Assembly (NCBI RefSeq): GCF_900156345.1 | Contig: NZ_FTPP01000002.1 | Span: 372,001-436,000, forward strand | Source: Pontibacter indicus | Lineage (GTDB): Bacteria; Bacteroidota; Bacteroidia; Cytophagales; Hymenobacteraceae | DNA length: 64,000 nucleotides | Reading direction: 5' to 3' | Shown here: positions 1-64,000 of the stretch, piece after piece | How positions within the stretch are numbered: the stretch's first letter is position 1 | How the letters are laid out: each line of letters starts with the position of its first letter | Notes under the pieces: model-generated | Seen by the model: the letters and a program-made list of their open reading frames with translations, nothing else | The model's database searches: none | Told to the model about the DNA's origin: nothing | Position numbers and translations under genes: made by a program

Positions 1-1
1 C

Positions 2-9
2 TACTTTTG
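2..9 (+). promoter_or_regulatory. panC promoter, -7 box
   Basis: TACTTTTG matches the Bacteroidota -7 consensus TAnnTTTG and ends 38 bp before the panC ATG. The -33 element lies outside the window, so the promoter is only half seen. Confidence 0.5.
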
Positions 10-47
10 CCGGCTTTCAGCAATTGCACCATTTAGACCGATTTAAT

Positions 48-902
48 ATGGAAGTTATAGAGCAGGTGTCAGCCCTCAGGGCCATAGTAGCGGCGCTGCG
101 TTGCGGCGGCAAGCGCATAGGCTTTGTGCCCACCATGGGCGCCCTGCACGAAGGGCACCTGCAGCTTTTGCGCGCCTCGGCCCGCGAGAATGACATTACG
201 ATTTGTAGTGTGTTCGTGAATCCGACTCAATTCAACAACGCCTCTGATTATAAGCTATACCCCCGCACGCTCGAGCAGGACACCCGTCTGCTGCAGACCG
301 TCGGCTGCGACTACTTGTTCGCGCCGAGTGCGGAGGAGATATACCCACAACAGTCTGTGCTGCAGTTTAGTTTCGGCGCGCTGGAAGCCGTGATGGAGGG
401 CGAGCACCGGCCGGGTCACTTCAATGGTGTGGCGACTGTCGTGAGTAAATTGTTCCACATTGTGCAGCCGCACAGGGCCTATTTCGGGCAGAAGGATTTG
501 CAACAGGTGGCCATTGTGCGGCAACTGGTGCAGGGCCTGAGCTTCGACCTAGAGTTGGTCTGCTTCCCCACTGTGCGCGAAGCCGACGGACTGGCCATGT
601 CGTCGCGCAACAAGCGCCTGAGCGAGGCGCAGCGGCAGTTGGCCCCACAGCTTTACCTAGCCTTGCAGACGGCAGCCGCCAATTTGCACCAAAAGCCCAT
701 CAACGCCATCAAAAGCGAAGTAGCGCAGCAGCTGCAGCAGGAAGAGGAGATCAAACTAGAATACTTTGAGATAGTGGATTCGCTCACGCTGCAGCCGCTT
801 CAGGACGTAAGCGGGCACGACGAGGTGGCCCTTTGCATTGCCGCTTTCGTGGGTGAGGTGCGCCTAATCGACAACCTGCTCGTGAATCTAAAAGAAATAT
901 AG
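48..902 (+). CDS. panC: Pantoate--beta-alanine ligase (pantothenate synthetase)
   Basis: Condenses pantoate and beta-alanine with ATP to give pantothenate, the last step towards the coenzyme A precursor, in the cytosol. The 284-aa length is normal for the family. The ATP-binding HIGH-like motif is seen as PTMGALHEGH at residues 28-37, followed by FVNPTQF, GHFNGV, the FGQKD block and the SSRN element of the adenylate-binding half. An in-frame TTG lies 24 bases upstream but the ATG at 48 starts directly before the conserved N-terminus, so I prefer it. panD follows about 1.1 kb later, separated by an unrelated minus-strand gene. Transcription from the TACTTTTG box at 2-9 would give a short leader. 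Confidence 0.97.
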   Translation: MEVIEQVSALRAIVAALRCGGKRIGFVPTMGALHEGHLQLLRASARENDITICSVFVNPTQFNNASDYKLYPRTLEQDTRLLQTVGCDYLFAPSAEEIYPQQSVLQFSFGALEAVMEGEHRPGHFNGVATVVSKLFHIVQPHRAYFGQKDLQQVAIVRQLVQGLSFDLELVCFPTVREADGLAMSSRNKRLSEAQRQLAPQLYLALQTAAANLHQKPINAIKSEVAQQLQQEEEIKLEYFEIVDSLTLQPLQDVSGHDEVALCIAAFVGEVRLIDNLLVNLKEI

Positions 903-1216
903 GTTGTTAACACTTATGGGAAGCCTATTTGTTGGGAAAGCTTACAGCCGACAAAAAAGTGCAGTAAGAAGAGGGCACTTGCATCTCACAGTGGCCTCGT
1001 GCGCTATATTGCAAAAATAGCCTCTAAGTATCGAAAAGGAAGAAAAAATGCTTTTTGGCTGCATGAGGGAATGCTTGGGCAGCCTTGCACTTGACTAAAT
1101 TAAAAATAATTGAGGGAGGATATGTATCCTCCCTCAAGGCAGTAACAGCTCAATCGCTAAAATAGGAAGAGGCAGCGTGCGAGACTGAACTGACACAGTA
1201 GTAAATTACTCTTAAA
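903..1216. other. Intergenic stretch, no gene seen
   Basis: About 310 bases between panC and a convergent lipoprotein gene. The only clear structure is the 13-bp hairpin at 1110-1137. Open frames here are very short (16 codons or fewer from an ATG) and show no recognisable product. Confidence 0.6.
1110..1137 (-). terminator. Intrinsic terminator for the minus-strand lipoprotein gene
   Basis: Perfect 13-bp arms beginning TTGAGGGAGG with a 2-base centre. On the minus strand the stem is followed by TTATTTTTAA, a U-rich tail. It lies 80 bp past the stop of the 1217-1798 gene. Confidence 0.65.
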
Positions 1217-1798
1217 TTATTCAGGAGCAGGAGTTGGATATGTTATAGTCATTGAACAGCAAGAGCTTTCACATTTAAAGTGAATTGTGCCATTAGGTTC
1301 AATCGAGCCACCAACTCTGCAATTAGTACACCCATGACAAGACACTGTCGGCCCTGAACCTTCTTCTGAAGCAGTCATTACTGCAGAAGACTCGCCATCA
1401 GCTTTAAGATTTCCTGTATTGCTAGAATGTACTTGTAATTTATTCGTAGAAAACTCTATTTTGCCTTTTCCTATAGCTATGTTTTTTACAAATTCGTCAC
1501 CTTTAACTTTATAAGAAACAAAGGCAGCAGAAGCTACTTTGGATTCCATATATTCAATATCAACGATTTCAATTGAATCAGTGCTTAAGCCGTTGATCTT
1601 AGAGAGCGATTTAAGAATATCCTGCTTGCTTTTAGCAATCGTAAACCCATTTGGAGAGGTAAGATGAAGCTCTGACGTCTTGCTTTCTATAGAAAGTTGA
1701 TCAGGCTCTAGCTCATCCTCTTTTGTACAGCCTGTAAATGCCGCAAGAGCGATGATAAAAAGCGCAAGTAGTGAAAATTTAGGCAATATTTTTTTCAT
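1217..1798 (-). CDS. AT-rich lipoprotein with a cysteine-rich C-terminus, unknown function
   Basis: A 193-aa product if started at the ATG at 1798 (a start at 1822 would add eight residues). The N-terminus is a lipoprotein signal: Lys-rich, hydrophobic stretch, then FTGC with the lipidated Cys at residue 24. The middle is polar and unrecognised. The last 40 residues hold six cysteines in the pattern CxxCxxC ... CxxxCC around a Gly-rich turn, which could bind metal or form disulfides. Base composition is clearly more AT-rich than panC and panD on either side, and it sits on the opposite strand between these two pathway partners, which suggests a recent insertion. Function unknown. Confidence 0.8.
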   Translation of the reverse strand: MKKILPKFSLLALFIIALAAFTGCTKEDELEPDQLSIESKTSELHLTSPNGFTIAKSKQDILKSLSKINGLSTDSIEIVDIEYMESKVASAAFVSYKVKGDEFVKNIAIGKGKIEFSTNKLQVHSSNTGNLKADGESSAVMTASEEGSGPTVSCHGCTNCRVGGSIEPNGTIHFKCESSCCSMTITYPTPAPE

Positions 1799-1996
1799 GA
1801 TTTTTGTTTTTAAGTTTTTCATAAAATCACTGTCCTCTTATTTGTTCTTTTTCAAGATACGATATATATAATATAAAAGTAATATTATTATGTGTTTTTC
1901 CTTCCCATCCGCTCTTTTACTATAGTGGCTTGTTCAGGTCCAGGACTTTTGAAAGTGATGCACAATGTGCTGGTAGTTTATCTGCCGCCAAATGCA

Positions 1997-2004
1997 TAAC
2001 TTTG
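1997..2004 (+). promoter_or_regulatory. panD promoter, -7 box
   Basis: TAACTTTG, a full match to TAnnTTTG, ends 22 bp upstream of the panD ATG. No good TTG is seen at the -33 distance, so the upstream element is weak. Confidence 0.55.
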
Positions 2005-2383: not shown

Positions 2384-3427
2384 ATGAGAAAACTGCTCTC
2401 TTTTCTGAAGTACAGCCTGCTTCTGGGGCTTTCCGCATTTCTGATGTGGTATGCCCTCAAAGAGCTCGACTTCGAAAAGCTATGGGCGGAGCTCCAGAAT
2501 ATTAACTATACCTGGCTGGCCGTATCCCTGGTGATGGGCCTGGCCGCCTACATGAGCCGGGCATACCGTTGGTACATGCAGATACGGCCCACAGGCTATA
2601 CCCCATCCTTTAAAAATACCTACGACGCCATGATGGTGGGCTATGTGGCCAACCTTGTGCTGCCCCGCATGGGCGAGCTTGTGCGCTGCAGCATGCTCCG
2701 CCGCAGCGATGGCATACCGGTTAACAAAGCCTTTGGCACGGTCATCGCCGAGCGCATCATCGACATGGTCATGCTGCTCCTTTTCCTGGGGCTCACCTTT
2801 CTGCTGGAGGTTAACCGCCTCCGCGATTTCCTCTTCGGTCTTTTCACAGATAAGTACGCCAGCCTGGAGCAAAGCTTCGGGTCGTTATACCTGTTTGTCA
2901 CGCTCGTGATGGTGGTGGGCCTCGTGTTTCTGGTGCTAGGGCTGCTATACCTGAACAGACTGCGGCAGAATGCCTTCTTCCGGAAAACCGTTGCCTTTGT
3001 GCGCGGTATGCTGCAGGGCGTTTTCAGCATCGCCAAGATTGAGAACCAGTTTGCTTTCTGGGGGCATACCCTGTTTGTGTGGGCCATGTACTACGGGATG
3101 AGCCTTGTGGTGTTCTACGCTATACCTGCCACCTCGCACCTCTCGCCCATAGCCGGACTGTCGGTGCTGGTGATCGGTACGCTGGGTATGGCGGCGCCCG
3201 TGCAGGGTGGGGTAGGAGTGTACCACCTGCTGGTACAAACCGTGCTGCTGCTTTATGGTATACCAAAGGAGGCAGGTATGGCCTACGCCCTGGTGGCGCA
3301 TACTTCGCAAACACTTTTGGTAGTTGCCATGGGAGTGATTAGCTTTATAACAGGAATGTTGCAAAAGCCTGCCGTGGCCGATGAGCTCGCGGAGGCAAAC
3401 CCGTCTATACATGAACTCGAAAGATAA
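2384..3427 (+). CDS. Flippase-like (LPG synthase TM domain family) membrane protein
   Basis: A 347-aa integral membrane protein with about eight hydrophobic segments, starting with an N-terminal helix at residues 5-24. The pattern NLVLPRMGELVRC near residues 93-105, the following GTVIAERIID and the AAPVQGGVGVYH stretch near 270 are the hallmarks of the PF03706 family (lysylphosphatidylglycerol synthase transmembrane region, UPF0104). Members without the C-terminal synthase domain, like this one, are of uncertain function, possibly lipid or glycolipid transfer. It follows panD by 9 bp and its last 17 bases overlap rfaE2, so the three probably form one transcription unit. Confidence 0.85.
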   Translation: MRKLLSFLKYSLLLGLSAFLMWYALKELDFEKLWAELQNINYTWLAVSLVMGLAAYMSRAYRWYMQIRPTGYTPSFKNTYDAMMVGYVANLVLPRMGELVRCSMLRRSDGIPVNKAFGTVIAERIIDMVMLLLFLGLTFLLEVNRLRDFLFGLFTDKYASLEQSFGSLYLFVTLVMVVGLVFLVLGLLYLNRLRQNAFFRKTVAFVRGMLQGVFSIAKIENQFAFWGHTLFVWAMYYGMSLVVFYAIPATSHLSPIAGLSVLVIGTLGMAAPVQGGVGVYHLLVQTVLLLYGIPKEAGMAYALVAHTSQTLLVVAMGVISFITGMLQKPAVADELAEANPSIHELER

Positions 3428-3899
3428 GATCCTATCCTGGTCGGACCTGCAGGAGCAAGTGCAGGCATGGCAGAAGCAGGGGCAGAAGATCGTTTTCACT
3501 AACGGCTGCTTCGATATTTTGCATCTGGGCCACGTCGATTACCTGGAGAAAGCACGACAACTTGGCGATAAACTGGTGCTCGGACTTAACACAGATGCGT
3601 CGATAAGTCGTATAAAAGGTCCAAGTCGCCCGCTGCAGGACGAAATGTCACGCGCGCGGGTTATGGCATCGCTTTTGTTTGTGGATGCTGTAGTATTCTT
3701 CGATGAAGATACGCCGCTCGAACTGATCAAGGCTGTGCAGCCCGACATACTGGTGAAAGGCGACGATTACAGCATCGAAAATATTGTGGGGCAGGATGTC
3801 GTTACAGCGAGAGGAGGCGAGGTGAAAACTGTGCCGCTCGTGAAGGGCTACTCCACCACGAATGTTGTTAAAAAAATTGAAAACCAAAATAAGTCATAA
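3411..3899 (+). CDS. rfaE2: D-glycero-beta-D-manno-heptose 1-phosphate adenylyltransferase
   Basis: Single-domain nucleotidyltransferase equal to the C-terminal half of E. coli HldE; it activates heptose-1-phosphate with ATP to ADP-heptose for LPS inner core. The 162-aa length fits. The HxGH nucleotide-binding motif is in TNGCFDILHLGH at residues 30-41, with the later KGDDY and YSTTNVVKKI blocks. The ATG at 3411 is chosen over an upstream ATG at 3381 because only the former fits the family's N-terminus. It overlaps the end of the preceding gene by 17 bp. The kinase half (RfaE1) is not in this window. Confidence 0.93.
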   Translation: MNSKDKILSWSDLQEQVQAWQKQGQKIVFTNGCFDILHLGHVDYLEKARQLGDKLVLGLNTDASISRIKGPSRPLQDEMSRARVMASLLFVDAVVFFDEDTPLELIKAVQPDILVKGDDYSIENIVGQDVVTARGGEVKTVPLVKGYSTTNVVKKIENQNKS

Positions 3900-3912
3900 T
3901 TAGGAGAACGCT

Positions 3913-4593
3913 ATGTTAGGAATTTATTTCATAGGTATACTCTTCATGGGCCTCAGCATGTGGGTGAGCTGGAGACTGAAGAGCAAGTTTAAAAAGTACT
4001 CGGAGATTCCGTTGCAGTCGGGCTATACCGGCCGCGAGATTGCCGAGATGATGCTGGCCGACAACGGCATACACGATGTGAAAGTAATATCGGTAGCCGG
4101 CCGTCTGACAGACCACTACAACCCCGCCGACAAAACGGTGAACCTGAGTGAGTATGTGTACGAAGCACGTAGTGCGGCTGCGGCTGCCGTAGCGGCGCAC
4201 GAATGCGGTCACGCCGTGCAGCATGCCAGAGCCTACAGCTTCCTGAAGTTCCGCTCGGCTATGGTGCCGGCGCTGAGCATCGCCTCACGCTACATGCAGT
4301 GGATCATCCTGATCGGTATCCTGATGCTGCAGACCACGCCCGTTCCGTTGACGATCGGGGTGGCCCTGTTCGCACTAACCACCATCTTTAGCTTCGTGAC
4401 CCTGCCGGTGGAGTTTGACGCCAGCAAGCGTGCCCTGGCCTGGATCAGCTCCAACAACATTGTAACGCAGCAGGAACTGGCCATGTCGAAAGACGCGCTG
4501 AAGTGGGCGGCCATGACCTACGTGGTAGCCGCGCTCGGCTCTCTGGCCACGCTGTTGTACTACGCATCGCTGCTGATGGGCCGCCGGGACTAA
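3913..4593 (+). CDS. Zinc metallopeptidase, YugP family
   Basis: A 226-aa membrane-anchored neutral zinc metallopeptidase (Zn_peptidase_2). One N-terminal transmembrane helix (residues 1-20) precedes the catalytic region, where the zinc ligands are seen in HECGH at residues 96-100 followed by AVQHA. Two to three hydrophobic segments follow near 130-165 and 200-220. The VEFDASKRAL segment near 165-175 is a conserved feature of the family and supplies a further acidic ligand. It follows rfaE2 by 13 bp with a GGAG-like sequence before the ATG. Substrate unknown. A strong terminator follows at 4627. Confidence 0.92.
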   Translation: MLGIYFIGILFMGLSMWVSWRLKSKFKKYSEIPLQSGYTGREIAEMMLADNGIHDVKVISVAGRLTDHYNPADKTVNLSEYVYEARSAAAAAVAAHECGHAVQHARAYSFLKFRSAMVPALSIASRYMQWIILIGILMLQTTPVPLTIGVALFALTTIFSFVTLPVEFDASKRALAWISSNNIVTQQELAMSKDALKWAAMTYVVAALGSLATLLYYASLLMGRRD

Positions 4594-4626
4594 GCTGACC
4601 GAGATGCAAATTAATTAAATAGTTAA

Positions 4627-4671
4627 ATCGCCATCCGTTCGTTCAGAGCGGGTGGCGATTTTGTTTTTTTT
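4627..4671 (+). terminator. Intrinsic terminator
   Basis: Arms ATCGCCATCCG and CGGGTGGCGAT (one wobble) followed by TTTTGTTTTTTTT. It closes the panD-to-protease transcription unit. Confidence 0.85.
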
Positions 4672-4673
4672 CA

Positions 4674-4681
4674 TAATTTTG
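4674..4681 (+). promoter_or_regulatory. Acyl-CoA dehydrogenase promoter, -7 box
   Basis: TAATTTTG, a full TAnnTTTG match, lies immediately after the preceding terminator and 41 bp before the ATG at 4723. Confidence 0.55.
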
Positions 4682-4722
4682 TACTATAATTCATTAATAG
4701 TAGTCCTTTTATATATAAAAGC

Positions 4723-5862
4723 ATGAATTTTCAATTAACTGAAGAACACTTGGCAGTGCAGGCTGCCGCCCGCGAATTTGCACAGACTGAATTGCTGCCA
4801 GGCGTAATAGAGCGCGACGAGCACCAGAAATTCCCTGCCGAGCAGATCAAGAAAATGGGCGAGCTTGGCTTCCTGGGTATGATGGTGGACCCGAAATACA
4901 ATGGTGGTGGCATGGACACTATCTCCTATGTGCTGGCCATGGAAGAAATTTCTAAAGTAGACGCTTCTGCCTCTGTGGTGATGTCGGTGAACAACTCACT
5001 GGTATGCTGGGGCTTGGAGAAGTATGGCACAGAGGAGCAAAAGCAGAAATACCTGACGCGTCTGGCGACTGGCGAAATCATCGGCGCCTTCTGTCTTTCT
5101 GAGCCGGAAGCTGGTTCTGACGCCACATCGCAGCGCACTACCGCCGAGGACAAAGGCGACTACTACCTGCTGAACGGTACTAAAAACTGGATCACGAATG
5201 GCAGCACGGCTTCTGTATACCTGGTAATCGCGCAGACAGACCCGGAGAAGAAGCACCGTGGCATCAACGCGTTCATCGTAGAGCGTGGCATGGAAGGCTT
5301 CCAGGTTGGTCTGAAAGAGAACAAGTTGGGTATCCGTGGCTCTGACACGCACTCGCTGATGTTCACGGATGTGAAAGTACCTAAGGAGAACCGCATCGGC
5401 GAAGACGGCTTTGGCTTTAAGTTCGCCATGTCGACGCTGGCAGGTGGCCGCATTGGTATTGCCGCGCAGGCACTGGGCATCGCTTCAGGCGCTTACGAGC
5501 TGGCGGTGAAGTACTCAAAAGAGCGCAAGGCATTTGGTGTGGAGATCGCCAAGCACCAGGCCATTCAGTTCAAACTGGCCGACATGGCCACTAACATCGA
5601 GGCTGCCCGACTGCTTTGCCTGAAGGCCGCTTTCCACAAAGACACGCATCAGGATTATGGCATGTCCGGTGCAATGGCGAAGCTGTTTGCCTCAAAAGTT
5701 GCCATGGAGACAACCGTAGAAGCAGTGCAAGTTCACGGCGGTTACGGTTTCGTGAAAGAGTACCATGTGGAGCGTTTGATGCGCGATGCCAAAATCACAC
5801 AAATCTATGAGGGTACTTCTGAGATTCAGAAAATAGTAATTTCAAGAGAATTACTAAAGTAA
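4723..5862 (+). CDS. Acyl-CoA dehydrogenase (short-chain type)
   Basis: FAD enzyme that introduces the alpha-beta double bond in acyl-CoA during fatty acid or branched-chain degradation and passes electrons to ETF. At 379 aa it has the normal three-domain layout: N-terminal helical domain, middle beta domain with FCLSEPEAGSDA near 124-135 and NGTKNWITNG near 153-162, and C-terminal helical domain. The catalytic base is Glu363 in QIYEGTSEIQ, the position used by short and medium chain and butyryl-CoA dehydrogenases. It stands alone after a terminator and is followed by an AraC-type regulator in the same direction. Chain length preference cannot be read from the sequence alone. Confidence 0.95.
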   Translation: MNFQLTEEHLAVQAAAREFAQTELLPGVIERDEHQKFPAEQIKKMGELGFLGMMVDPKYNGGGMDTISYVLAMEEISKVDASASVVMSVNNSLVCWGLEKYGTEEQKQKYLTRLATGEIIGAFCLSEPEAGSDATSQRTTAEDKGDYYLLNGTKNWITNGSTASVYLVIAQTDPEKKHRGINAFIVERGMEGFQVGLKENKLGIRGSDTHSLMFTDVKVPKENRIGEDGFGFKFAMSTLAGGRIGIAAQALGIASGAYELAVKYSKERKAFGVEIAKHQAIQFKLADMATNIEAARLLCLKAAFHKDTHQDYGMSGAMAKLFASKVAMETTVEAVQVHGGYGFVKEYHVERLMRDAKITQIYEGTSEIQKIVISRELLK

Positions 5863-6020
5863 TTTGGCACTTAAACCTTTGTTACTGTGTTATTTAGGCT
5901 AAGGATATAGTTTATCTAATTAAAATTAAATATTTAAAATATTTTGAATTTTATAAAGATTGCCCTAGCTTTAGGACAAAATTAAAGGGTTTATAGTATA
6001 AAAGTTAGTTGGTAACACAC

Positions 6021-6944
6021 ATGGAAGATTACAATAAGATTATTGAGTCGCTTGGGGTGCGGTTCATTAAAGCGAAAAATCTGGTGTTGCAGCAGCCGTT
6101 CTCGGTTCGCAACTACTACGACGTAGGCAACAACCTGATTCTGCTTCATAAAGGTACAATTTTCTTTGGTGAGGAGGAACAGATGGTAGAAGAGGGCGAA
6201 CTGCTCTTTATACCGGGTGGACGCAGCACGAAGGTAACCTATGGTTCCACCGACGGGCGCTCTATCACAAATGACGATCTGATCACCAACAGAGAGAAGT
6301 TCTTTAAGAGCAACAACGACCTCGACCTGATCGGCGACGCCGAAGAGAGCCACAGCTATGTGAGCTTCGAAGCGAAGGTGTTCGACTCTGTTAACTTCTT
6401 TGCATCACTCGACCTGCCTGCCTTCCTGATCTCAGGAAACAACAAGCTGGCTAACCTGGTGATCAAAGTGGTAGAAGAGACGATGCAGGACTTGCCTGGC
6501 AAGGAGCGCCTGATCAGCATCTACACCGAGAACATCGTGGTGGAGATCGTACGCCACATTCTGCGCAACAAAATGTTCGTGGAGCAGTTGGCTACCAACA
6601 GCACCTACTTCAAAGACCCGCGCCTCATCGACCTGTTCAACTACATTAAGGAGAACTTGGGCGGCGACCTGTCTAACAAAGTGCTTTCCAATGTTGCCAA
6701 CGTATCGGAGGACTATGTAGGCCAGTACTTCAAAATGCTGACCGGCATCAACCCTCAGGACTATATCGAATACCAGCGTATGGAGCGCGCCGTGTTCCTG
6801 CTTCGCACTACGAAGAAGAGCATCCGCGAAATTGGCAAGGACGTGGGTTACAAAGACACCGCTTACTTCTGCCGTCGCTTCAAGATGATGTTCGGTATAC
6901 CTGCCGGTAAGATGCGCCGTCGCGAATCAGCGATGAATATCTAA
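6021..6944 (+). CDS. AraC-family transcriptional regulator
   Basis: A 307-aa regulator. The N-terminal part (to about residue 190) has no family I can name and starts with a cupin-like stretch (FSVRNYYDVGNN, then LLFIPGG). The C-terminal 100 residues carry two helix-turn-helix motifs ending in the classical GYKDTAYFCRRFKMMFGIPAGKMRR segment (split here for length: GYKDTAYFCRRF, then KMMFGIPAGK). The ATG at 6021 is preferred to an in-frame TTG 12 bases upstream. The gene end overlaps the end of the convergent GGGP synthase gene by 18 bp, and its terminator lies inside that gene. Confidence 0.9.
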   Translation: MEDYNKIIESLGVRFIKAKNLVLQQPFSVRNYYDVGNNLILLHKGTIFFGEEEQMVEEGELLFIPGGRSTKVTYGSTDGRSITNDDLITNREKFFKSNNDLDLIGDAEESHSYVSFEAKVFDSVNFFASLDLPAFLISGNNKLANLVIKVVEETMQDLPGKERLISIYTENIVVEIVRHILRNKMFVEQLATNSTYFKDPRLIDLFNYIKENLGGDLSNKVLSNVANVSEDYVGQYFKMLTGINPQDYIEYQRMERAVFLLRTTKKSIREIGKDVGYKDTAYFCRRFKMMFGIPAGKMRRRESAMNI

Positions 6945-55345: not shown

Positions 55346-55393
55346 GTTAAACAGTAATGTCGTGAGGCTACGAGCATTGCCGTTTCCCTGTAG

Positions 55394-55413
55394 GGACAGG
55401 GCGCGACCTGTCC
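55394..55413. repeat. GGACAGG/CCTGTCC inverted repeat
   Basis: GGACAGG-GCGCGA-CCTGTCC inside TGTAGGGACAGGGCGCGACC, an intergenic repeat form I recognise from other Bacteroidota and cyanobacteria; no coding role. Confidence 0.6.
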
Positions 55414-55487
55414 GAATCGTGCGTACGGCGACCTCACAGGTATAGCGCTTATGAATTGCAGGTATAGCGACCATTCGCAGGTATACC

Positions 55488-55495
55488 TATCTTTG
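55488..55495 (+). promoter_or_regulatory. GNAT gene promoter, -7 box
   Basis: TATCTTTG matches TAnnTTTG, 40 bp before the GTG start. Three CAGGTATA words lie immediately upstream, at about 20-bp intervals. Confidence 0.5.
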
Positions 55496-55535
55496 TCCCC
55501 TTGTCCAACAGTCTTTTGTCACATAGTCATCCCAA

Positions 55536-56471: not shown

Positions 56472-56502
56472 CTTTTCAGGTATAGAAGCACCTTGTGCAA
56501 GT

Positions 56503-56955
56503 CTATTCCAGATCCAACTGCCGGCCTTCGGATTTGGCCTTTTCATCCAGTTTAGCACCAATGCCCATACCTATACCCATCCCAATGGGTAAGCCCAGCC
56601 CAAGTAAGGCGAAATTCTTCAGCGCCAGCGAAAACACGACCCCGAACGGCAAGCCAAATGTCGACATGCCCAGTGCCAGCCACAGTTTCAGATGATGCTT
56701 CTGCGGAACCAGGTTTAGTTGCTTCTCCACAAGCTTCAGGATAGCGCTTCGGGTTTCTTTCAGTTTGGCAGTATGCTCCTTAGCGGGAATATTGAGGCCG
56801 TTGAGTGGCTCCAGCTGCTGTGTAATAGTGGCGGCTATACCTTCCGGTATGGCTTTGCTGTTCAGCGCATCAATCAGCTGTTGCATGCGGTTAAACTCTT
56901 CGGCCAGTTTTTCAGACTGTGCTATACCTTCTATGGGCTGCAGCTTTGGGATCAT
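56503..56955 (-). CDS. Membrane protein with glycine-zipper C-terminus, unknown function
   Basis: A 150-aa protein. The first 90 residues are helical and polar, with probable coiled coils (EKLAEEFNRMQQLIDALN). Two hydrophobic segments follow (about 91-108 and 112-132), the second a glycine zipper LGLPIGMGIGMGIG. No signal peptide and no family recognised. Minus strand, downstream of the EamA gene. Confidence 0.6.
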   Translation of the reverse strand: MIPKLQPIEGIAQSEKLAEEFNRMQQLIDALNSKAIPEGIAATITQQLEPLNGLNIPAKEHTAKLKETRSAILKLVEKQLNLVPQKHHLKLWLALGMSTFGLPFGVVFSLALKNFALLGLGLPIGMGIGMGIGAKLDEKAKSEGRQLDLE

Positions 56956-57144
56956 TTAGGCTTTGGTTAAGGGATTGCTGATGATTGGGCGCGAAACATC
57001 CGGGCCCGACTCAATGAAATAAGCGAATTATCTCGAGACTTGAAAATCCTACTATGGCAAACCTTGCCGGATAAAATAAAACAGCCTCTGCCCGGGTAGG
57101 ACAGCGGCCGCTGATGCAGGTATAGACTTGCTGATCTTTGGTAA

Positions 57145-57987
57145 CTATTTTGCCCGGTTGACAATAAACACGCCCGCCAGGATAACGACCATGCCCACAT
57201 AATGCCAAAGGTGAATGACTTCGCCGTCCAGCACACCCCACATCAGCGCCACCACAGGTATGAGGTAGGTGGTAGAGCTGGCAAACAGGGTGGTCGACAT
57301 CTGGATCAGCTTATTGAAGAGCACTAAGGCAATGGCGGTGCTGAACACGGCCAGGATGGCAATATACATCAGCGCCTCCCAGGCGCCGGGCACATGCTGC
57401 AGCTTGTAAAGGAAATCGGTGGTGAGCAGGTATACGAGCGCCACAGGGCCCACCGTAAGCAGGGCCAGACTGGAGACCGCAATAGCCTTCATGCCGTGGA
57501 GGCGGAACTTGATGAGGTTGGCGCTGATGCCGTAGAAAATGGTGGCCAGCACGATGTACAGGCCATAGTACATGTTGTCGAGCTCGGCGTTGCCGTTGCC
57601 TGAGAAGATGAGCACCGCCGTACCCGCTATACCTACCACAATACCGAGCATGCGCATCCAGGTGATGGACTGACCAAACAGGGCGGCACCTACCAGCAGC
57701 GTAAATAGAGCCGTGAGCGAGTTAAGCACACCCGCCAATCCGCTGGCCAGGCGCGTCTCGGCAATGGCAAACAGAAAGGCCGGCAGGAAGTTGCCAAGAA
57801 GACCACTGCCCAAGAGATACTTCCAGCGGTGTGGCTCTACCTTGCGCACATTCTTAATGGCAAAAGGCAACAGGGCGGCGCAGGCAATCACCATGCGCAG
57901 CGCACCCAGCTCGTCCGAAGAGTAAACGACCAGGCCCTTCTTGATGAGAATAAACGAGGTGCCCCAGATCAGGGCCAGTATGATCAC
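57145..57987 (-). CDS. EamA-family (DMT) transporter
   Basis: A 280-aa inner-membrane permease with ten predicted helices in two EamA repeats; the first repeat has LALIWGTSFILIKKGL and the second ISANLIKFRLHGMKAIA. Members export metabolites or amino acids; substrate unknown. The listed start is GTG at 57987; the natural start could be further upstream at a non-standard codon because the frame stays open for about 20 codons. Downstream of dusB on the same strand. Confidence 0.85.
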   Translation of the reverse strand: MIILALIWGTSFILIKKGLVVYSSDELGALRMVIACAALLPFAIKNVRKVEPHRWKYLLGSGLLGNFLPAFLFAIAETRLASGLAGVLNSLTALFTLLVGAALFGQSITWMRMLGIVVGIAGTAVLIFSGNGNAELDNMYYGLYIVLATIFYGISANLIKFRLHGMKAIAVSSLALLTVGPVALVYLLTTDFLYKLQHVPGAWEALMYIAILAVFSTAIALVLFNKLIQMSTTLFASSTTYLIPVVALMWGVLDGEVIHLWHYVGMVVILAGVFIVNRAK

Positions 57988-58044
57988 CAGGACCCAGGCG
58001 ATGGCCGGAATACCTGTTTGCTCTTTGGTGGGAGAGGGGATGGT

Positions 58045-58110
58045 TTTGATAAGTTTAAGAATTTAGGAGTTAGAGAGTTTAAGAGTTGGAAGTTGAACCT
58101 CTAAACTCGT
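58045..58110. repeat. GTTTAAGAGTT-type repeat, copy 2
   Basis: AAGTTTAAGAATTTAGGAGT, then TTAGAGAGTTTAAGAGTTGG and a few more units, in the gap between dusB and the EamA gene. It is inverted with respect to copy 3 at 58183-58230. Confidence 0.6.
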
Positions 58111-58120
58111 CTGCAAATAT

Positions 58121-58166
58121 AAAAGGAGTTGAAGTCTCAACACGTATGCCGATACCCCAACTCCTT
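58121..58166 (-). terminator. Weak hairpin after dusB
   Basis: Arms AAGGAGTTG and CAACTCCTT around a 26-base loop; on the minus strand a short T run follows. May be a terminator of dusB, less convincing than others. Confidence 0.4.
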
Positions 58167-58182
58167 AATTAAATTTTGCATT

Positions 58183-58230
58183 GAGAGTTCGAAATTCTTC
58201 AACTCATCACTCTCAAACTCTTAAACTTCT
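58183..58230. repeat. GTTTAAGAGTT-type repeat, copy 3
   Basis: The minus-strand sequence AAGTTTAAGAGTTTGAGAGT contains the dusB stop codon, so the repeat overlaps the end of the gene. Confidence 0.6.
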
Positions 58231-59216
58231 TCTGCTGCGTAGCTCATCGTCTGGGCAATCTCATCCAGCGTGTCGTAAATTTCCTGGATGTCTTCGGACT
58301 GCACCAGTTTCATGCGCAGGGGCTTGAAGTGCGGCAGGCCACGGAAGTAGTTGGTGTAATGGCGGCGCATCTCAAAAATGCCCAGCTTATCGCCCTTCCA
58401 CTCCAGCGAATGCGTGAAGTGCTGGCGGCAAACTTCTACGCGCTCCTCCAAAGTTGGCGGCGGCAAAAGCTCGCCAGTTGCCATGTAATGCTTGATCTCG
58501 TTGAAGATCCACGGATGGCCAATGGAGGCGCGGCCCACCATGATGCCGTCAACGCCATACCTGTTGCGGTACTCCAGCGCCTTCTCCGGTGAGTCGATGT
58601 CGCCGTTGCCGAAGATGGGGATCTTCATGCGTGGGTTGTTCTTCACCTCCGCAATCAGGCGCCAGTCGGCTTCGCCCTTGTACATCTGCACGCGGGTGCG
58701 GCCGTGTATGCTCAGCGCCTTGATGCCGATGTCCTGCAGCCTTTCAGCTGTTTCTACAATGTTTTTGGTATCCTCGTCCCAGCCCAGACGCGTCTTCACG
58801 GTCACGGGCAGGTGGGTGGCTTTCACAATCTCCTCGGTCATCTTCACCATCTTCGGGATATCGCGCAACAAGGCGGCACCGGCTCCTTTGCAGGCCACGT
58901 TCTTCACAGGGCAGCCGTAGTTGATGTCGATCAGGTCCGGGCCGGCCTGCGACGACACAATGGCGGCCTCGCGCATCGAGTCGATCTCGGATCCGAAGAT
59001 CTGAATGCCGATGGGGCGCTCGTAGTCAAAAATGTCGAGTTTTTGCACACTTTTGGCGGCATCACGTATCAGTCCCTCAGAGGATATGAACTCGGTATAC
59101 ATCAGGTCGGCCCCGTTGGCTTTGCACACTTTCCGGAAAGGCGGATCGCTCACGTCCTCCATCGGTGCCAGCAGCAGCGGAAACTCGCCCAGTTCTATGT
59201 TCGCTATCTTTACCAA
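58221..59216 (-). CDS. dusB: tRNA-dihydrouridine synthase
   Basis: FMN enzyme reducing uridine in the tRNA D-loop. 331 aa, standard. The FMN motif LLAPMEDVSDPPFR is at residues 15-28, the catalytic Cys (102) in INYGCPVKNV, then TVKTRLGW, IHGRTRVQMY and the phosphate site GNGDI ... GIMVGRASIGHPW. The probable start is TTG at 59216. Divergent from the CPBP protease gene. Confidence 0.95.
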   Translation of the reverse strand: MVKIANIELGEFPLLLAPMEDVSDPPFRKVCKANGADLMYTEFISSEGLIRDAAKSVQKLDIFDYERPIGIQIFGSEIDSMREAAIVSSQAGPDLIDINYGCPVKNVACKGAGAALLRDIPKMVKMTEEIVKATHLPVTVKTRLGWDEDTKNIVETAERLQDIGIKALSIHGRTRVQMYKGEADWRLIAEVKNNPRMKIPIFGNGDIDSPEKALEYRNRYGVDGIMVGRASIGHPWIFNEIKHYMATGELLPPPTLEERVEVCRQHFTHSLEWKGDKLGIFEMRRHYTNYFRGLPHFKPLRMKLVQSEDIQEIYDTLDEIAQTMSYAAEEV

Positions 59217-59269
59217 AGCAAAAGTTAATTTTTCACGTAAATTTACGTCAATTAAACCTAATCTTCTCT

Positions 59270-60235
59270 ATGAAAGGTTTCATCTCCGAAGATCGACACC
59301 CGTTTTTAGTACTGCTGCTGTTGCTGGCGTTTATGCTGGGCGGCTATTTTGTGGCCAGTTTTATATACCTGGCGCTGGTAACGACGGTGCTCGGAATAGA
59401 GGTGATGGACCTGACCAACCTGCTGGCTAACCCAACGGAACACCCGGAGGCGGCCGATGCACTACTGCTCTTTCAGGGGCTGGTGCAATTCTGCTCTTTT
59501 GTGCTGGCGCCGCTGCTGATGCTGCGCCTGGCAAACGTGAACATCGACCATTACCTGAACTGGAAAAAACTGCCGCTGCCCATTTTGCTGCTACTCGCGG
59601 GTTTTCTGATCATCTTCATCATGCCGGCCAACTCGCTTATCATCAACTGGAACGCGGAGCTTTCGCTGCCCGGTTTTATGAAGGGTTTTGAGGAGTGGGC
59701 GCGTGCCAAGGAAGACGAGCTGGCGGAGCTTACCAAACTGATCGCCAATTTCGGGACGGTACCACGCCTGCTGGCAGGCCTTTTGGTGATTGCCGTTATA
59801 CCTGCCATCGGCGAGGAGTTGGTGTTCAGGGGCGTGCTGCAACGCCAGGTGCACCGCTGGTCAGGCAATGCGCATGTGGCGGTTTGGGTGGCGGCCATCA
59901 TCTTCTCGGCCATACACGTGCAGTTCTTTGGCTTTGTGCCGCGTGTGTTGCTGGGCGCTCTGTTCGGTTACTTATACCTGTGGTCGGGCAACATTTGGGT
60001 ACCGATTATCGCGCACTTCTTCAACAATGGCTTTACGGTGTTTTTGCTATACCTGCAGCAGACGGGCACCATCGATTTTAATGTGGAGTCGACAGAGCCG
60101 ATGCCGATCCTGACCATTTTGATCTCGGCAGTGCTGAGTGCTGCCCTAATCTATTACCTTTACAAGCAATTTATGCTCACGCCTACCCGCCCCGAAAGCA
60201 TAGCCGAGGCAGCGGGAGAGCGCGAGAACACTTAA
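59270..60235 (+). CDS. CPBP-family intramembrane metalloprotease
   Basis: A 321-aa membrane protein with about eight helices (PF02517). Active-site motifs: GEELVFRGVLQRQ near 181-193 (EExxxR), FSAIHVQFFGFVPRVLLGAL near 215-234 and HFFNNGFTV near 255. Substrate unknown. The ATG at 59270 rather than an upstream ATG at 59165 is preferred because the longer form would overlap dusB. The cdsA gene follows 47 bp downstream. Confidence 0.93.
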   Translation: MKGFISEDRHPFLVLLLLLAFMLGGYFVASFIYLALVTTVLGIEVMDLTNLLANPTEHPEAADALLLFQGLVQFCSFVLAPLLMLRLANVNIDHYLNWKKLPLPILLLLAGFLIIFIMPANSLIINWNAELSLPGFMKGFEEWARAKEDELAELTKLIANFGTVPRLLAGLLVIAVIPAIGEELVFRGVLQRQVHRWSGNAHVAVWVAAIIFSAIHVQFFGFVPRVLLGALFGYLYLWSGNIWVPIIAHFFNNGFTVFLLYLQQTGTIDFNVESTEPMPILTILISAVLSAALIYYLYKQFMLTPTRPESIAEAAGERENT

Positions 60236-60282
60236 TTCGAGACTAACACCCGGCTTCTGATGCTGCCGGCAACCTATATCGC

Positions 60283-61110
60283 ATGAGCACCAAGCTATCT
60301 GCCCTTAACAATTTACAACAACGCCTGATTGTCGGAGTATTGGGGGCGGCCCTCTTCATCGGAGGCATCATTTTAAGCGAGTGGACTTTCTTTATCCTTT
60401 TTCTGGGGCTTACCGTGCTGGGCACGCTGGAGTTTTACCGGCTGGCAGCCACGGCAGGTATAAAAGCCAACAAGGTATACGGCACGCTGCTGGCAGCCGG
60501 CATTTTCATCGCCGTTTTCCTGTTTGAGCAGGCCGACGCCCCGACCGAACTGCTATACCTCTTCCTGCCGGCCCTGTTCCTGGTATTTGTGCTGGAGCTG
60601 TACCGCAAACAGGCGCAGCCGTTCACCAACATCGCCTTTACCTTGCTGGGCGTGCTCTACATCGCTGTGCCCTTTTCGCTGCTGCAGCAGCTCGGTTATT
60701 TGCAGGGTGAGTACCGCTGGCAACCTGTCCTGGGGCTGCTGCTGCTAATCTGGTCGTCTGACACGGGTGCCTACATCGCAGGAAAGAACTTCGGCAAGAA
60801 CAAACTTTTCGAGCGCATCTCTCCCGGCAAAACCTGGGAAGGCTGGATTGGCGGCACCATTCTGACGCTCGTGGTGGGCTGGGTGCTGTCCATGTTCTTC
60901 CTCGATCTGGAGCTCTACCAGTGGCTGGGGGTAGCGAGCATTGTGTCGGTTTTTGGTGTGCTGGGCGACCTTGTGGAGTCGCTGCTGAAACGGAGCCTGG
61001 GCGTAAAAGACTCGGGCACGCTGCTGCCCGGCCATGGCGGCATTCTGGACCGCTTCGACAGCCTGGTGATGGCCATTCCGTTCATCGTCGCTTTCCTTAA
61101 AATATTCTAA
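60283..61110 (+). CDS. cdsA: Phosphatidate cytidylyltransferase (CDP-diglyceride synthase)
   Basis: Activates phosphatidate with CTP to CDP-diacylglycerol, the branch point of phospholipid synthesis. A 275-aa membrane protein with about seven to eight helices. The C-terminal signature GVLGDLVESLLKRSLGVKDS (then GTLLPGHGGILDRFDSL) is clear. In the same region as psd at 62601, though two genes apart. Confidence 0.95.
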   Translation: MSTKLSALNNLQQRLIVGVLGAALFIGGIILSEWTFFILFLGLTVLGTLEFYRLAATAGIKANKVYGTLLAAGIFIAVFLFEQADAPTELLYLFLPALFLVFVLELYRKQAQPFTNIAFTLLGVLYIAVPFSLLQQLGYLQGEYRWQPVLGLLLLIWSSDTGAYIAGKNFGKNKLFERISPGKTWEGWIGGTILTLVVGWVLSMFFLDLELYQWLGVASIVSVFGVLGDLVESLLKRSLGVKDSGTLLPGHGGILDRFDSLVMAIPFIVAFLKIF

Positions 61111-61205
61111 CTTAATGTTGGTGAAGGTTTAGGTGTGAGTATGTAATAATTACATAACTTTACCACCATAATTGTTACTCACTGATAAAATCAAGCTTAA
61201 AAATA

Positions 61206-62480
61206 ATGTTATACAAAGAGCCAGCACCGATAAAGGACAGGGAAAACCCATTTGAATCGATGATGTCGCGTTTCAACATCGCGGCCGAGATTCTGGGCTT
61301 GGATGAGGAAGTTTATAACGTACTCAAAACACCGACACGTCAGGTGATCGTGAACGTGCCTGTTACAATGGACGACGGCAAAGTACGCGTGTTCGAAGGT
61401 TACCGTGTGATTCACTCCACTATCCTGGGGCCGTCTAAAGGCGGTATCCGCTTTGCCCCGGACGTGTTCCTGGACGAGGTGAAGGCGCTGGCCGCCTGGA
61501 TGACCTGGAAGTGCGCCGTGGTGGACATCCCTTATGGCGGTGCCAAAGGCGGTGTCATCTGCGATCCTTTCTCGATGTCGGCCGGTGAAATGGAGCGTCT
61601 GACCAGAGCCTATACCCAGGCGTTGGTAGACACCTTCGGTCCGGATCAGGACATTCCTGCGCCAGACATGGGCACCGGTCCGCGCGAGATGGCCTGGCTA
61701 ATGGACGAATACTCCCGTATGAAAGGCTCTACCATACATGCTGTGGTAACGGGCAAGCCGTTGGTACTGGGTGGTTCGCTAGGCCGTGTGGAAGCCACTG
61801 GTCGCGGTGTAATGGTATCGGCGATGGCGGCGATGGACAAACTGGGCATGGACCCGGCCAAATCAACTGCCGTGATTCAGGGATTTGGTAACGTGGGTGC
61901 CTGGGCTGCCAAACTGATGGCCGAGCGCGGTGTGAAGATCCTGGGTATAAGCGACGTGAGCGGCGCCTACTGGAACGACAACGGCATCGACATCGAAGAG
62001 GCGATCGAATACAAGAACAACAACAAAGGCCGTCTGGAAGGCTATAAGAACGCCGAGAAGATCAGCAACGATGAGCTGCTGATCTCTAAAGTGGACGTGC
62101 TGGTGCCAGCCGCCGTGGAAGACGTGATTACGATCAAGAACGTAGACCAGATTCAGGCCCGCCTGATCGTAGAGGGCGCCAATGGTCCTACTTCCTACAA
62201 AGCCGACAACATCATCAACGAGAAGGGCATCATGGTAGTGCCGGACATCCTGGCTAACTCAGGTGGCGTAACCGTGTCGTACTTCGAGTGGGTGCAGAAC
62301 CGCATGGGCTTTAAGTGGACGCTGGATCGCGTAAACGAGCGTGCCGAGCGCATCATGAACGAGTCGTTTGAGCGTGTGTATGCTGCTTCGCAAAAGTACA
62401 ACGTGCCAATGCGTATAGCTGCTTACATCGTGGCAATTGACAAGGTAGCCATGACGTATAAGTACCGCGGCGGCTTCTAA
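61206..62480 (+). CDS. Glutamate dehydrogenase (NAD-type, RocG/GudB-like)
   Basis: A 424-aa hexameric GDH. Motifs: GPSKGGIRFAPDV near 77-89, catalytic Lys region VDIPYGGAKGGVICDP near 110-125, substrate and cofactor site VIQGFGNVGAWAAKL near 220-234, then VEGANGPTSYKAD and PDILANSGGVTVSYFEW. This is the canonical form; the other two superfamily members in the window differ. Single gene with TAACTTTA (one mismatch) upstream at about 61153. Confidence 0.95.
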   Translation: MLYKEPAPIKDRENPFESMMSRFNIAAEILGLDEEVYNVLKTPTRQVIVNVPVTMDDGKVRVFEGYRVIHSTILGPSKGGIRFAPDVFLDEVKALAAWMTWKCAVVDIPYGGAKGGVICDPFSMSAGEMERLTRAYTQALVDTFGPDQDIPAPDMGTGPREMAWLMDEYSRMKGSTIHAVVTGKPLVLGGSLGRVEATGRGVMVSAMAAMDKLGMDPAKSTAVIQGFGNVGAWAAKLMAERGVKILGISDVSGAYWNDNGIDIEEAIEYKNNNKGRLEGYKNAEKISNDELLISKVDVLVPAAVEDVITIKNVDQIQARLIVEGANGPTSYKADNIINEKGIMVVPDILANSGGVTVSYFEWVQNRMGFKWTLDRVNERAERIMNESFERVYAASQKYNVPMRIAAYIVAIDKVAMTYKYRGGF

Positions 62481-62515
62481 GAGAAGATTTTTGTTAAAAT
62501 AATCGAAAGATTATA

Positions 62516-62523
62516 TAATTTTG
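62516..62523 (+). promoter_or_regulatory. psd promoter, -7 box
   Basis: TAATTTTG matches TAnnTTTG; TTG at 62491-62493 gives a 22-bp spacer. A 11-bp hairpin begins 7 bp downstream. Confidence 0.6.
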
Positions 62524-62530
62524 AAGCAGT

Positions 62531-62562
62531 AATAGCCCATCTAAGAAACTGGATGGGCTATT
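62531..62562 (+). terminator. Hairpin: GDH terminator or psd 5' leader stem
   Basis: Perfect arms AATAGCCCATC and GATGGGCTATT, followed by ATAACTTATAAAGG with no strong T run. It lies after the -7 box at 62516, so it could sit at the very 5' end of the psd mRNA. Confidence 0.5.
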
Positions 62563-62600
62563 ATAACTTATAAAGGACCTGTAGCATTTAGTTTTCACGG

Positions 62601-63284
62601 ATGAAAATTCATAAAGAAGGAAGAAGGATTCTATTTTTTACTCTGTTGATTTTGGTCGTACTCAACCTGTTGCTGTACCATTTCAACGCCGATAACAAGA
62701 CCTTCAACAAGATTTTCTCCGGTGTTTCAGTAGTGCTCTTCCTGCTCATCCTGCAGTTTTTCCGCAGCCCTTACCGCAACCTGCTCCTGCACGAAGACCT
62801 GATCGTGGCGCCAGCCGATGGCAAAGTGGTGGTGATCGAGGAAGTGGAGGAGACAGAGTACTTCAAAGACAAGCGCAAGCAGATCTCTATTTTCATGTCG
62901 CCGATCAACGTGCACATCACGCGCAACCCGGTGTCCGGCATTGTGAGCTATTTCAAATACCACCCGGGCAACTATTTTGTGGCCTGGCACCCGAAGTCAA
63001 GCACGCAGAACGAGCGCACCACGGTGGTGGTAGAGTCCACGGCTGGTCCGGAGGTACTGTTCCGCCAGATTGCCGGTGCGATGGCGCGCCGCATTGTGTG
63101 GTATGTGAACGAGGGCGATGAGGTAAGCCAGGGCGAGGAATTTGGCTTCATCAAGTTCGGCTCGCGCGTAGACATCTTCCTGCCGCTGGACGCGGAAGTG
63201 AAAGTAGAACTCGGCCAGAAAACCAAAGGCGGCCAGACTGTGATTGCCCAACTCAAGACAGCACCGCCGACCTTATTCGGATAG
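62601..63284 (+). CDS. psd: Phosphatidylserine decarboxylase proenzyme
   Basis: Makes phosphatidylethanolamine from phosphatidylserine. 227 aa, the short archaeal/Bacteroidota type. N-terminal membrane segments at about 10-28 and 40-55; then PADGKVV, SPINVHITRNPVSG and the self-cleavage site Gly187-Ser188 in FIKFGSRVDIF, which yields the pyruvoyl group. A strong terminator follows at 63318. It works downstream of the CdsA product via a PS synthase that is not in this window. Confidence 0.95.
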   Translation: MKIHKEGRRILFFTLLILVVLNLLLYHFNADNKTFNKIFSGVSVVLFLLILQFFRSPYRNLLLHEDLIVAPADGKVVVIEEVEETEYFKDKRKQISIFMSPINVHITRNPVSGIVSYFKYHPGNYFVAWHPKSSTQNERTTVVVESTAGPEVLFRQIAGAMARRIVWYVNEGDEVSQGEEFGFIKFGSRVDIFLPLDAEVKVELGQKTKGGQTVIAQLKTAPPTLFG

Positions 63285-63317
63285 GATCAACAAAAGCTTT
63301 ATAAGCGAAGACATTGC

Positions 63318-63356
63318 AAGAGCCATGCTGGAGACGATCTCCGGCATGGCTCTTTT
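63318..63356 (+). terminator. Intrinsic terminator
   Basis: Arms AAGAGCCATGCTGGAGA and TCTCCGGCATGGCTCTT (one wobble) around CGA, followed by TT. Confidence 0.8.
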
Positions 63357-63532
63357 GCTGGTGGGCTATACCTGTGCAAGGCCTCCAGTAAAAGATTTAG
63401 AGCTGTTTAGAAGCATGGCTGGTGTTTAAACATTAAATTTGCATCCTGAAATTGCGGCCGTAGAGCTGGTGACTAACATTCTTCCTTGAAAAGCGTTAGG
63501 ACAAAAGCATGATGATGGCGCCAATTGCACCT

Positions 63533-64000
63533 ATGAGAAAATTTTACTCCCTCTTACTCTTCCTGAGCCTAGCGCTGCTTTCGGCTTGCGAAGAGTTGTT
63601 CGAATACCATCCGAATCAGATTATATTAAACGAAGACGAGCGCAACCTCACTGCCCGCAACCTAGCGCGGCTGCAACAGCAGCAACCCGGCGACACGCTG
63701 CACCTGCTCGTGATGGGCGACACGCAACGCTTCTATGACGCGGCCGAAGCCTTTGTCGACAAAGCTAACACCTTCCCGTATATCGATTTTGTGATTCACC
63801 AGGGCGATATTTCTGACTTTGGTATGTCGCAGGAGTTCCGTTGGGTGCACGACATCATGAAAGGGCTGAAGTGGCCCTACCTGACGGTGGTGGGTAACCA
63901 CGACCTGCTGGCCAACGGGCGCAAGGTATACGAGCAGATGTACGGCGCCTTCAACTACAGCTTCGACTACGGCCATACCCGCTTTATGTTCATCGACACC
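63533..64000 (+). CDS. Metallophosphoesterase lipoprotein, partial (runs off the window)
   Basis: The first 156 residues of an exported calcineurin-like phosphoesterase. Lipobox LSAC with the lipidated Cys near residue 18 (from the ATG at 63533; an upstream ATG at 63509 is possible). Metal-binding motifs so far: LVMGDTQRF near 63-71, VIHQGDISDF near 85-94 and VVGNHDLL near 120-127. The rest lies outside the window. Confidence 0.88.
   Translation, partial: MRKFYSLLLFLSLALLSACEELFEYHPNQIILNEDERNLTARNLARLQQQQPGDTLHLLVMGDTQRFYDAAEAFVDKANTFPYIDFVIHQGDISDFGMSQEFRWVHDIMKGLKWPYLTVVGNHDLLANGRKVYEQMYGAFNYSFDYGHTRFMFIDT

Follow-up and report, generated by a model that had tools for sequence, protein, structure and literature searches.

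The window analyzed here is a 64,000-nt stretch of the Pontibacter indicus genome (contig NZ_FTPP01000002.1, positions 372,001 to 436,000) with 59 predicted genes, taken as open reading frames (ORFs) of 100 amino acids (aa) or more. One 8-mer, AGGTATAG, recurs throughout it, inside genes and between them, at ~1.16 copies per kb: 74 copies, 34 on the plus and 40 on the minus strand (Table 1). The shorter GGTATA occurs 169 times. An initial annotation, made from the letters alone, had tallied ~70 and ~150 of these words by eye and called them strongly over-represented, and two kinds of shuffle upheld that call. The mean over 100 dinucleotide-preserving shuffles was 0.79 copies of AGGTATAG (maximum 4), and such shuffles gave a mean of 14.4 and at most 23 copies of GGTATA. 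Within the 59 genes, 44 copies of AGGTATAG were observed against 1.9 ± 1.4 (maximum 6) in 300 synonymous-codon shuffles, and 123 of GGTATA against 25.7 (maximum 42). The annotation had also held that ATA codons appear mostly as part of the word; this is true of 49 of 192 in-frame ATA codons, which read GGT-ATA or ATA-CC, and the other 143 sit in other contexts.

Table 1. Positions of the word and of two word-bearing hairpins in the window
Feature	Positions	Strand	Details
AGGTATAG throughout the window	1..64000		same word genome-wide
34 copies of AGGTATAG	7242..57125	+	starts 7242 7470 7935 12412 13386 15792 15933 17024 17543 17995 24857 29057 29353 31893 31978 34820 34856 35341 35535 36269 38216 41378 44546 45251 45296 46050 48946 55438 55460 55551 55827 55989 56478 57118
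40 copies of AGGTATAG (CTATACCT on the plus strand)	2506..63373	-	starts 2506 2945 3120 9663 11865 13354 15943 16007 16018 16264 16653 18107 21028 21610 23867 25644 25833 27017 27207 28761 29915 30344 31793 32165 35683 35921 40127 44831 45959 46708 48548 48905 52182 56385 56835 56922 57627 60047 60553 63366
Inverted arrangement AGGTATA-AGGTATAG-CG-CTATACCT, intergenic, hairpin-capable	15926..15950		fold of 15915-15965: -10.8 kcal/mol, z -3.1
Terminator-like hairpin and T run; the word contributes to the loop and to one arm	17985..18017	+	fold of 17980-18035: -18.9 kcal/mol, z -3.5

The word is larger in scale than the annotation had noted. In the genome of the window (G000; 4,566,239 bases in 8 contigs), AGGTATAG occurs 5,128 times, evenly on the two strands (2,562 plus, 2,566 minus), against 65 copies (38 plus, 27 minus) of the reversed word that we used as a control. 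For the shape of the word, we took a 324-kb sample of G000, made up of the window and 13 further stretches (one of them, L124, picked for comEC; L123, picked for a DUF5689 gene and holding 2 copies, was left out). This sample contains 426 perfect copies where 7 are expected. They extend to a fuller consensus, [C/A]AGGTATA[G>>C,A]C, with C or A preferred just 5' and C just 3', and the flanks are otherwise featureless; as the annotation had said, they vary between copies, at distances greater than about ±2 bases. Pooled sequence from AGGTATAG genomes (607 kb) holds 50 times as many copies as a third-order Markov model, fitted with the core masked, predicts. Changing one base at positions 2 to 6 leaves words at 0.3- to 3.3-fold of expectation; a change to G or C at position 1, to G at position 7, or to A, C, or T at position 8 leaves ~4- to 16-fold.

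Comparison with other Pontibacter and Hymenobacteraceae genomes, which the annotation had proposed, brought out a set of dialects. We called a dialect genome-wide at a minimum of 1,000 copies and at least 10-fold over the reversed word; a first screen of the 38 Pontibacter genomes without AGGTATAG, in which AAGTATAA and AACTATAG first emerged, drew on one stretch each (20 kb in 33 of them), and the genome surveys together used 80 stretches, nine of them under 7 kb. Among 50 Pontibacter genomes, 39 bear a related 8-mer at 10- to 88-fold over its control: AGGTATAG in 12 (AGG), AAGTATAA in 20 (AAG), AACTATAG in 4 (AAC), and both AAGTATAA and AACTATAG in 3, which brings the genomes over threshold to 23 and 7 for these two words. 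Copy numbers run from 2,823 to 5,222 in the 12 AGGTATAG genomes and from 2,002 to 8,208 in all motif-bearing Pontibacter when every over-threshold word is counted. A ComEC profile search among named genomes likewise pointed to Pontibacter as the genus. At 12- to 22-kb loci, AGGTATAG is the word of P. virosus, P. lucknowensis, P. ramchanderi, P. aquaedesilientis, P. roseus, P. amylolyticus, and others, AAGTATAA that of P. mucosus, P. chinhatensis, P. flavimaris, P. mangrovi, P. arcticus, and others, and AACTATAG that of P. populi. Positions 3 to 6 ([G/C]TAT) are strict in all three dialects, with variants at most 3.2-fold over expectation beside words that are 31- to 68-fold over it. The other 11 genomes hold none of the three words (all ratios below 5; G115 and G131 highest) and are larger, with a mean of 5.71 versus 4.59 Mb, ~1.1 Mb apart (p = 3.6e-6, uncorrected for kinship). 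Some of them may have words of their own, such as GGTATAA in G115 and TATATA in G002 (20 kb each).

Dialects follow descent. A ComEC tree with 39 rows needs 5 changes to explain the dialect labels, against 19.7 when they are shuffled. All AGG rows lie on one side of a single branch (support 92/98), and the two AAC rows on one side of a different branch (100/100), with a single change each; AAG needs 4 changes and the absence of a word 3. The tree omits L175 (a broken gene), L181, and L183-L222, and its dialects were assigned from 12 to 22 kb (L170, 12 kb) at 10 copies or more. Within the genus, AAGTATAA also gives way to AACTATAG by degrees: across eight genomes chosen for holding at least about 900 copies of AACTATAG (G131, with 476, lies outside the series), AAGTATAA falls from 6,128 to 788 copies while AACTATAG rises from 907 to 8,208 (rho = -0.98). 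The genomes in between look like stages of a dialect switch, and we read them as a switch that is probably under way.

Copies appear to be made in place. We aligned 30 comEC sequences, in which 23 dialect-bearing genomes contribute 111 motif sites after one gap-containing site was set aside. At 106 of the 111, no gap lies nearby in 90% or more of the remaining rows, and at 86 of the 111 a single base separates the site from its closest non-motif homologous 8-mer. Hence, the copies were made by substitution and not by insertion, which bears out the annotation's view that the word is not one mobile repeat. Within a dialect, sites are also conserved: AGG sites are shared in 64 of 104 pairwise comparisons versus 30 of 416 for 8-mers of the same composition, and AAG sites in 476 of 1,280 versus 1,140 of 5,472, the pairs being non-independent in both cases. 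Five alignment columns in three loci carry two dialects, each in different species (2 of 36 in comEC, 2 of 14 in dprA, 1 of 7 in rpoB, and 0 of 5 at a helicase locus), against means of 0.09, 0.06, 0.01, and 0.00 under circular shifting, or ~0.16 in total. One dprA column holds AGGTATAG in 8 of 11 AGG genomes and AAGTATAA in 5 of 7 AAG genomes.

Placement within the genome is uneven. In the 324-kb sample, intergenic DNA (outside ORFs of 100 aa or more) makes up ~17% of the sequence but holds 163 of the 426 copies, and genic copies are more often antisense (149) than sense (100). Copies number 5.15 per kb in gaps between convergent genes, 3.16 in tandem gaps, and 1.60 in divergent gaps, where promoters lie. 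Spacing is over-dispersed (coefficient of variation [CV] 1.22), and short distances are over-represented, in part through one (GGTATA)n array; this tandem array (L090:3661-3722, ~750 bp past the end of comEC in G000) contains ten overlapping copies of AGGTATAG. A few copies lie in hairpins or terminators, but inverted pairs are a minority. Terminator function was rejected as the main role, with only 11 intergenic inverted neighbor pairs within 70 bp versus the 163 intergenic copies.

The comEC and dprA loci are rich in the word, and both genes are, with few exceptions, intact. We compared loci in genomes with genome-wide AGG or AAG counts, counting copies less than 20 bp apart once (22 of 30 comEC, 18 of 30 dprA, 20 of 30 rpoB, and 8 of 10 SF1-helicase loci). 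Density is 1.99 times the genome mean at comEC (above the mean in 21 of 22 genomes) and 1.64 times at dprA (14 of 18), versus 0.60 times at rpoB (2 of 20) and 0.76 times at the SF1-helicase locus (3 of 8). Both comEC and dprA are present in all 50 Pontibacter genomes. Several lesions break the two genes together in G046 and G089 (L323-L326), where the rpoB frame is open, and dprA is broken nowhere else. In G119 (L082), comEC carries an apparent single frameshift at about residue 550 and the dprA frame is open; in the other 47 genomes the comEC frame is open and 702 to 736 aa long. Joint breakage in the same 2 of 50 genomes suggests that the two genes may be kept for one purpose, transformation, and would fit a single competence unit. 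A search of the 50 genomes with PF00437, the one pilus component searched for, detected no type IV pilus ATPase: the best matches score 19.9-25.9 bits over ~45-66 of 370 positions in ORFs of ~640-700 aa, 3 of 50 pass the cut-off marginally, and one matching ORF is read by Pfam as an AAA_11/AAA_12 helicase. A ComP-type pilin receptor is thus not expected in Pontibacter.

A second set of words lies in other genera. In a family survey of 200 sampled genomes, ACCTAGGG is abundant in some members of two genera: 3 of 8 g4 genomes hold 2,808-3,106 copies (controls 1-5), and 2 of 116 g5 genomes hold 2,643 and 2,746 (controls 2 and 3). Three more g5 genomes hold 896 to 988 copies and one holds 337, beside survey controls of 0 to 30. 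The g5 genome with 2,746 copies (G184) has, yet, only 2 in its single 20-kb stretch. Two ACCTAGGG-bearing g5 genomes show ACCTAGGT or ACCTAGCT prominently in their 20-kb stretches, and CCTACCCC occurs 17 times, dispersed, versus ~1 expected in 20 kb of another g5 genome (L250, G053), a possible further dialect. Judged by shape, these CCTAGG words and the Pontibacter words may belong to one system. Among 148 genomes searched across the order, the 137 from other families showed no enrichment of AAGTATAA, the ratio to control never exceeding about 1.5.

We propose that the word marks DNA as self during natural uptake, or when DNA already taken up is admitted to recombination, and would put the probability of this at roughly 0.6; an uptake word was one of several guesses in the initial annotation, and it is the one that the sequence evidence favors. 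A putative reader, a surface or periplasmic DNA-binding protein, would prefer word-bearing DNA. Such fragments would enter via ComEC, be protected by DprA, and recombine with the chromosome, and alleles with the word would be copied over alleles without it. This drive, limited by gene function, would accumulate roughly one copy per kb; under a simple balance of mutation with selection or drive, the 50- to 79-fold enrichment would imply that each site carries a scaled advantage of about 4. A one-base shift in the preference of the reader would be followed slowly by the genome, leaving species dialects and mixed genomes. We infer uptake, reader, and drive alike from patterns in the DNA.

At the level of sequence, a genome-wide word with species dialects resembles the DNA uptake sequences (DUS) of Neisseriaceae and the uptake signal sequences (USS) of Pasteurellaceae in most respects tested. 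Like the Pontibacter word, DUS are thousands of short asymmetric copies on both strands, with fixed-core dialects, conserved sites, and some relatives without the word (PMC3630211, PMC2397512, PMC2346458). Their counts are 943-5,918, in genomes smaller than those of Pontibacter, the dialects share a fixed CTG core, and a Simonsiella genome with two dialects is comparable to the AAGTATAA/AACTATAG genomes (PMC3630211). In contrast, DUS belong to a different phylum and are unrelated, longer words (10-12 versus 8 bases). They are reported to be depleted in acquired DNA and biased to genome-maintenance genes, neither of which is established for the Pontibacter word. The USS shares a spacing of about one word per kb and an origin by point mutation (PMC7811141). 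The Pasteurellaceae system differs in its pilus ATPase, which was not detected in Pontibacter, and for this reason we do not class the word with either the neisserial or the pasteurellacean system, proposing only that it functions in a similar way. The USS is flanked by AT-rich tracts; such tracts were not seen within about 15 bases of the Pontibacter word.

Within Bacteroidota there is a precedent for a pilus-free machine with a preference for self DNA. Riemerella transforms without pili via ComEC, DprA, ComF, RecA, and four novel proteins, ComEC and DprA being essential (PMC8459023), and R. columbina favors its own DNA (PMC7965970). Unlike Pontibacter, Riemerella has no uptake word reported in the portions consulted of these two papers, and DUF5689, the domain of its candidate receptor, does not track the Pontibacter word. 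A 2020 paper names, in the part consulted, only Pasteurellaceae and Neisseriaceae for strong uptake-word preference (PMC7811141), and a literature search of titles and abstracts, with most subscription papers and preprints outside it, returned no such word for Bacteroidota. We lean, slightly beyond an even chance, toward a third independent family of self-recognizing uptake words in Hymenobacteraceae, with a putative non-pilin receptor, a pilus-free machine, at least three Pontibacter dialects, CCTAGG-centered dialects in two genera, and genomes in the middle of a one-base switch. If this is true, self-tagging of DNA would have evolved repeatedly, with this third case in another phylum, and a pilin receptor would not be needed for it. 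It would also bring within reach of direct testing the question of how an uptake word changes when thousands of copies must follow. As a practical use, these environmental bacteria might be easier to transform with DNA that bears the matching 8-mer.

Several observations weigh against a role in uptake. First, no reader protein for the word was found among the candidates considered, DUF5689 and a Type IIG restriction-methylase. DUF5689 was rejected as reader: it occurs in 22 of 50 genomes, uncorrelated with the word, and its gene in G000 belongs to a SusC/SusD locus. Second, full-length comEC and dprA frames are present in all 11 word-free genomes, and so the two genes alone do not predict the word. 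Third, the decay predicted after loss of competence was not seen in the sample from G089 and G046, where the loss may be of any age. In G089 (90 kb) the single-mismatch excess is 0.31 of perfect copies versus 0.30 in G129; in G046 (32 kb) the single-mismatch ratio is 0.49 versus 0.33 in G000, within a span of 0.09-0.78 over 15 single AAG loci. G046, with comEC and dprA both broken, still keeps 5,041 copies, and G119, with its frameshifted comEC, holds the most AACTATAG copies of all. Fourth, the enrichment at comEC and dprA may reflect weak codon constraint, and the columns shared between dialects may in part be conserved amino acids able to host either word. Fifth, density is unequal between the two GC-skew arcs of the G129 chromosome, at 25.4 versus 14.6 copies of AAGTATAA per 20 kb (10 versus 8 stretches; p = 0.0098).

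A bias toward DNA-maintenance genes is likewise not established. Among 45 long ORFs of G000, comparing word density in six DNA-maintenance ORFs with that in 37 others yields p = 0.085; p is 0.011 without ComM/YifB, 0.17 without the SNF2 ORF, and 0.038 with comEC added. The class was set from Pfam names after the densities had been seen, 3 ORFs had no Pfam match at threshold, and the test omits the restriction enzyme and, except where counted, comEC, which was sampled deliberately. XseA, PolA, DnaX, and the SNF2 helicase rank high among the 45 and UvrA is middling, and the ComM/YifB gene (L132:2265-3803) has no copy at all, although the comEC and dprA loci are rich.

The alternative that survives best, which we still consider unlikely, is a word like cyanobacterial HIP1: the target of an orphan methyltransferase or other modification enzyme, kept for the function of the modified site. 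The initial annotation had noted the likeness, and in abundance it stands, HIP1 being a very abundant 8-mer of unsettled role, with no proven function in uptake in the source as consulted (PMC4390886). HIP1 is, however, a fixed palindrome, GCGATCGC, tied to two methyltransferases (PMC4390886), whereas the Pontibacter word is asymmetric (AGGTATAG, AAGTATAA) and is spelled differently across species, and the reading therefore fits less well. G000 does encode a word-dense Type IIG restriction-methylase (L140:2090-5323; 1,077 aa, 8 copies), the only methyltransferase surveyed. It has no match in the AGGTATAG genomes G101, G105, G121, G081, and G046, and its matches span genomes of all three dialects and some word-free ones. 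Its closest relatives in other Pontibacter lie in longer open frames, of at least ~1,300 aa. We rejected the enzyme as reader for its patchiness, with any match in 25 of 50 genomes and several of the matches fragments.

Somewhat less probable is a Chi-like site, which would regulate an AddAB- or RecBCD-type nuclease and promote recombination repair. Such a site would also be a short, abundant, conserved 8-mer, Chi is tied to recombination in other bacteria, and enrichment at comEC and dprA would fit. The Chi of E. coli is strand-polarised (PMC8022716). Replication-strand bias was not seen in the one genome examined for it: over 18 stretches of the G129 chromosome, AAGTATAA occurs 187 times on the plus and 184 on the minus strand, split by GC-skew arc into 128/126 and 59/58. 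The absence of such bias in G129 speaks against sites of the Chi or KOPS (FtsK-orienting polar sequence) type, and the replication-polar signal that the annotation had entertained found no support there. The Pontibacter word is also far more over-represented than Chi, at 31- to 68-fold over the third-order Markov model, and has several spellings inside one genus.

We give lower weight again to a binding site for a nucleoid-organizing or segregation protein. The genome-wide spread on both strands and the denser arc of G129 would suit such a protein; the lack of strand polarity in that genome and the clustered rather than regular spacing (CV above) would not, and thousands of sites would have to track each change of preference without a drive. 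The lowest G129 stretch, at 2.45 Mb, has 2 copies of AAGTATAA.

A bias of mutation or repair, such as a Vsr-like correction that writes a functionless word, is more doubtful still. Sites do arise by point substitution, and single-mismatch words at positions 1-6 are about twice as frequent as expected in G000 (250 versus 114). Several different substitutions would, however, have to converge on one 8-mer, mismatches at positions 2-6 number 147 versus 94 expected beside 426 perfect copies versus 7, and divergent gaps are poorer in the word than convergent ones. Dispersal of one mobile repeat family can be set aside almost entirely, the (GGTATA)n array near comEC being the one feature that resembles it and the unrelated flanks and gap-free orthologous comEC sites contradicting it.

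Some minor observations concern other proteins and words. In long proteins of 1,281 aa (L223:8216-12061) and 1,267 aa (L224:7874-11677), DUF5689 is accompanied by lamin-tail, endonuclease/exonuclease/phosphatase, and type IX sorting domains, which makes them nuclease-like, and 10 of 50 genomes have the domain in frames of similar length. Three candidate dialects were discarded: TGACGTCA (G104) and AAATTCAT (G108) left the top words once copies less than 100 bp apart were collapsed, and the Botryobacter word GAGGTAGA is mostly a tandem repeat. In G172 (L260, genus g5), CTAGGCCA occurs 14 times versus ~1.4 expected and may be a further dialect. A second abundant family of 10-mers, ACTATACTAT/TACTATACTA, reaches a two-strand count of 22 in 20 kb of G107 (L050) and 8 in G093 (L046). 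Two stretches of G000 are poor in the word. L123 (G000:C6:420001-440000), the SusC/SusD locus with the DUF5689 gene, has its 2 copies where ~22 are expected per 20 kb, a single stretch that is possibly acquired DNA. In the window, positions 48954-55437 (~6.5 kb) hold one copy only, at 52182, are among its poorest parts, and are possibly newer DNA.

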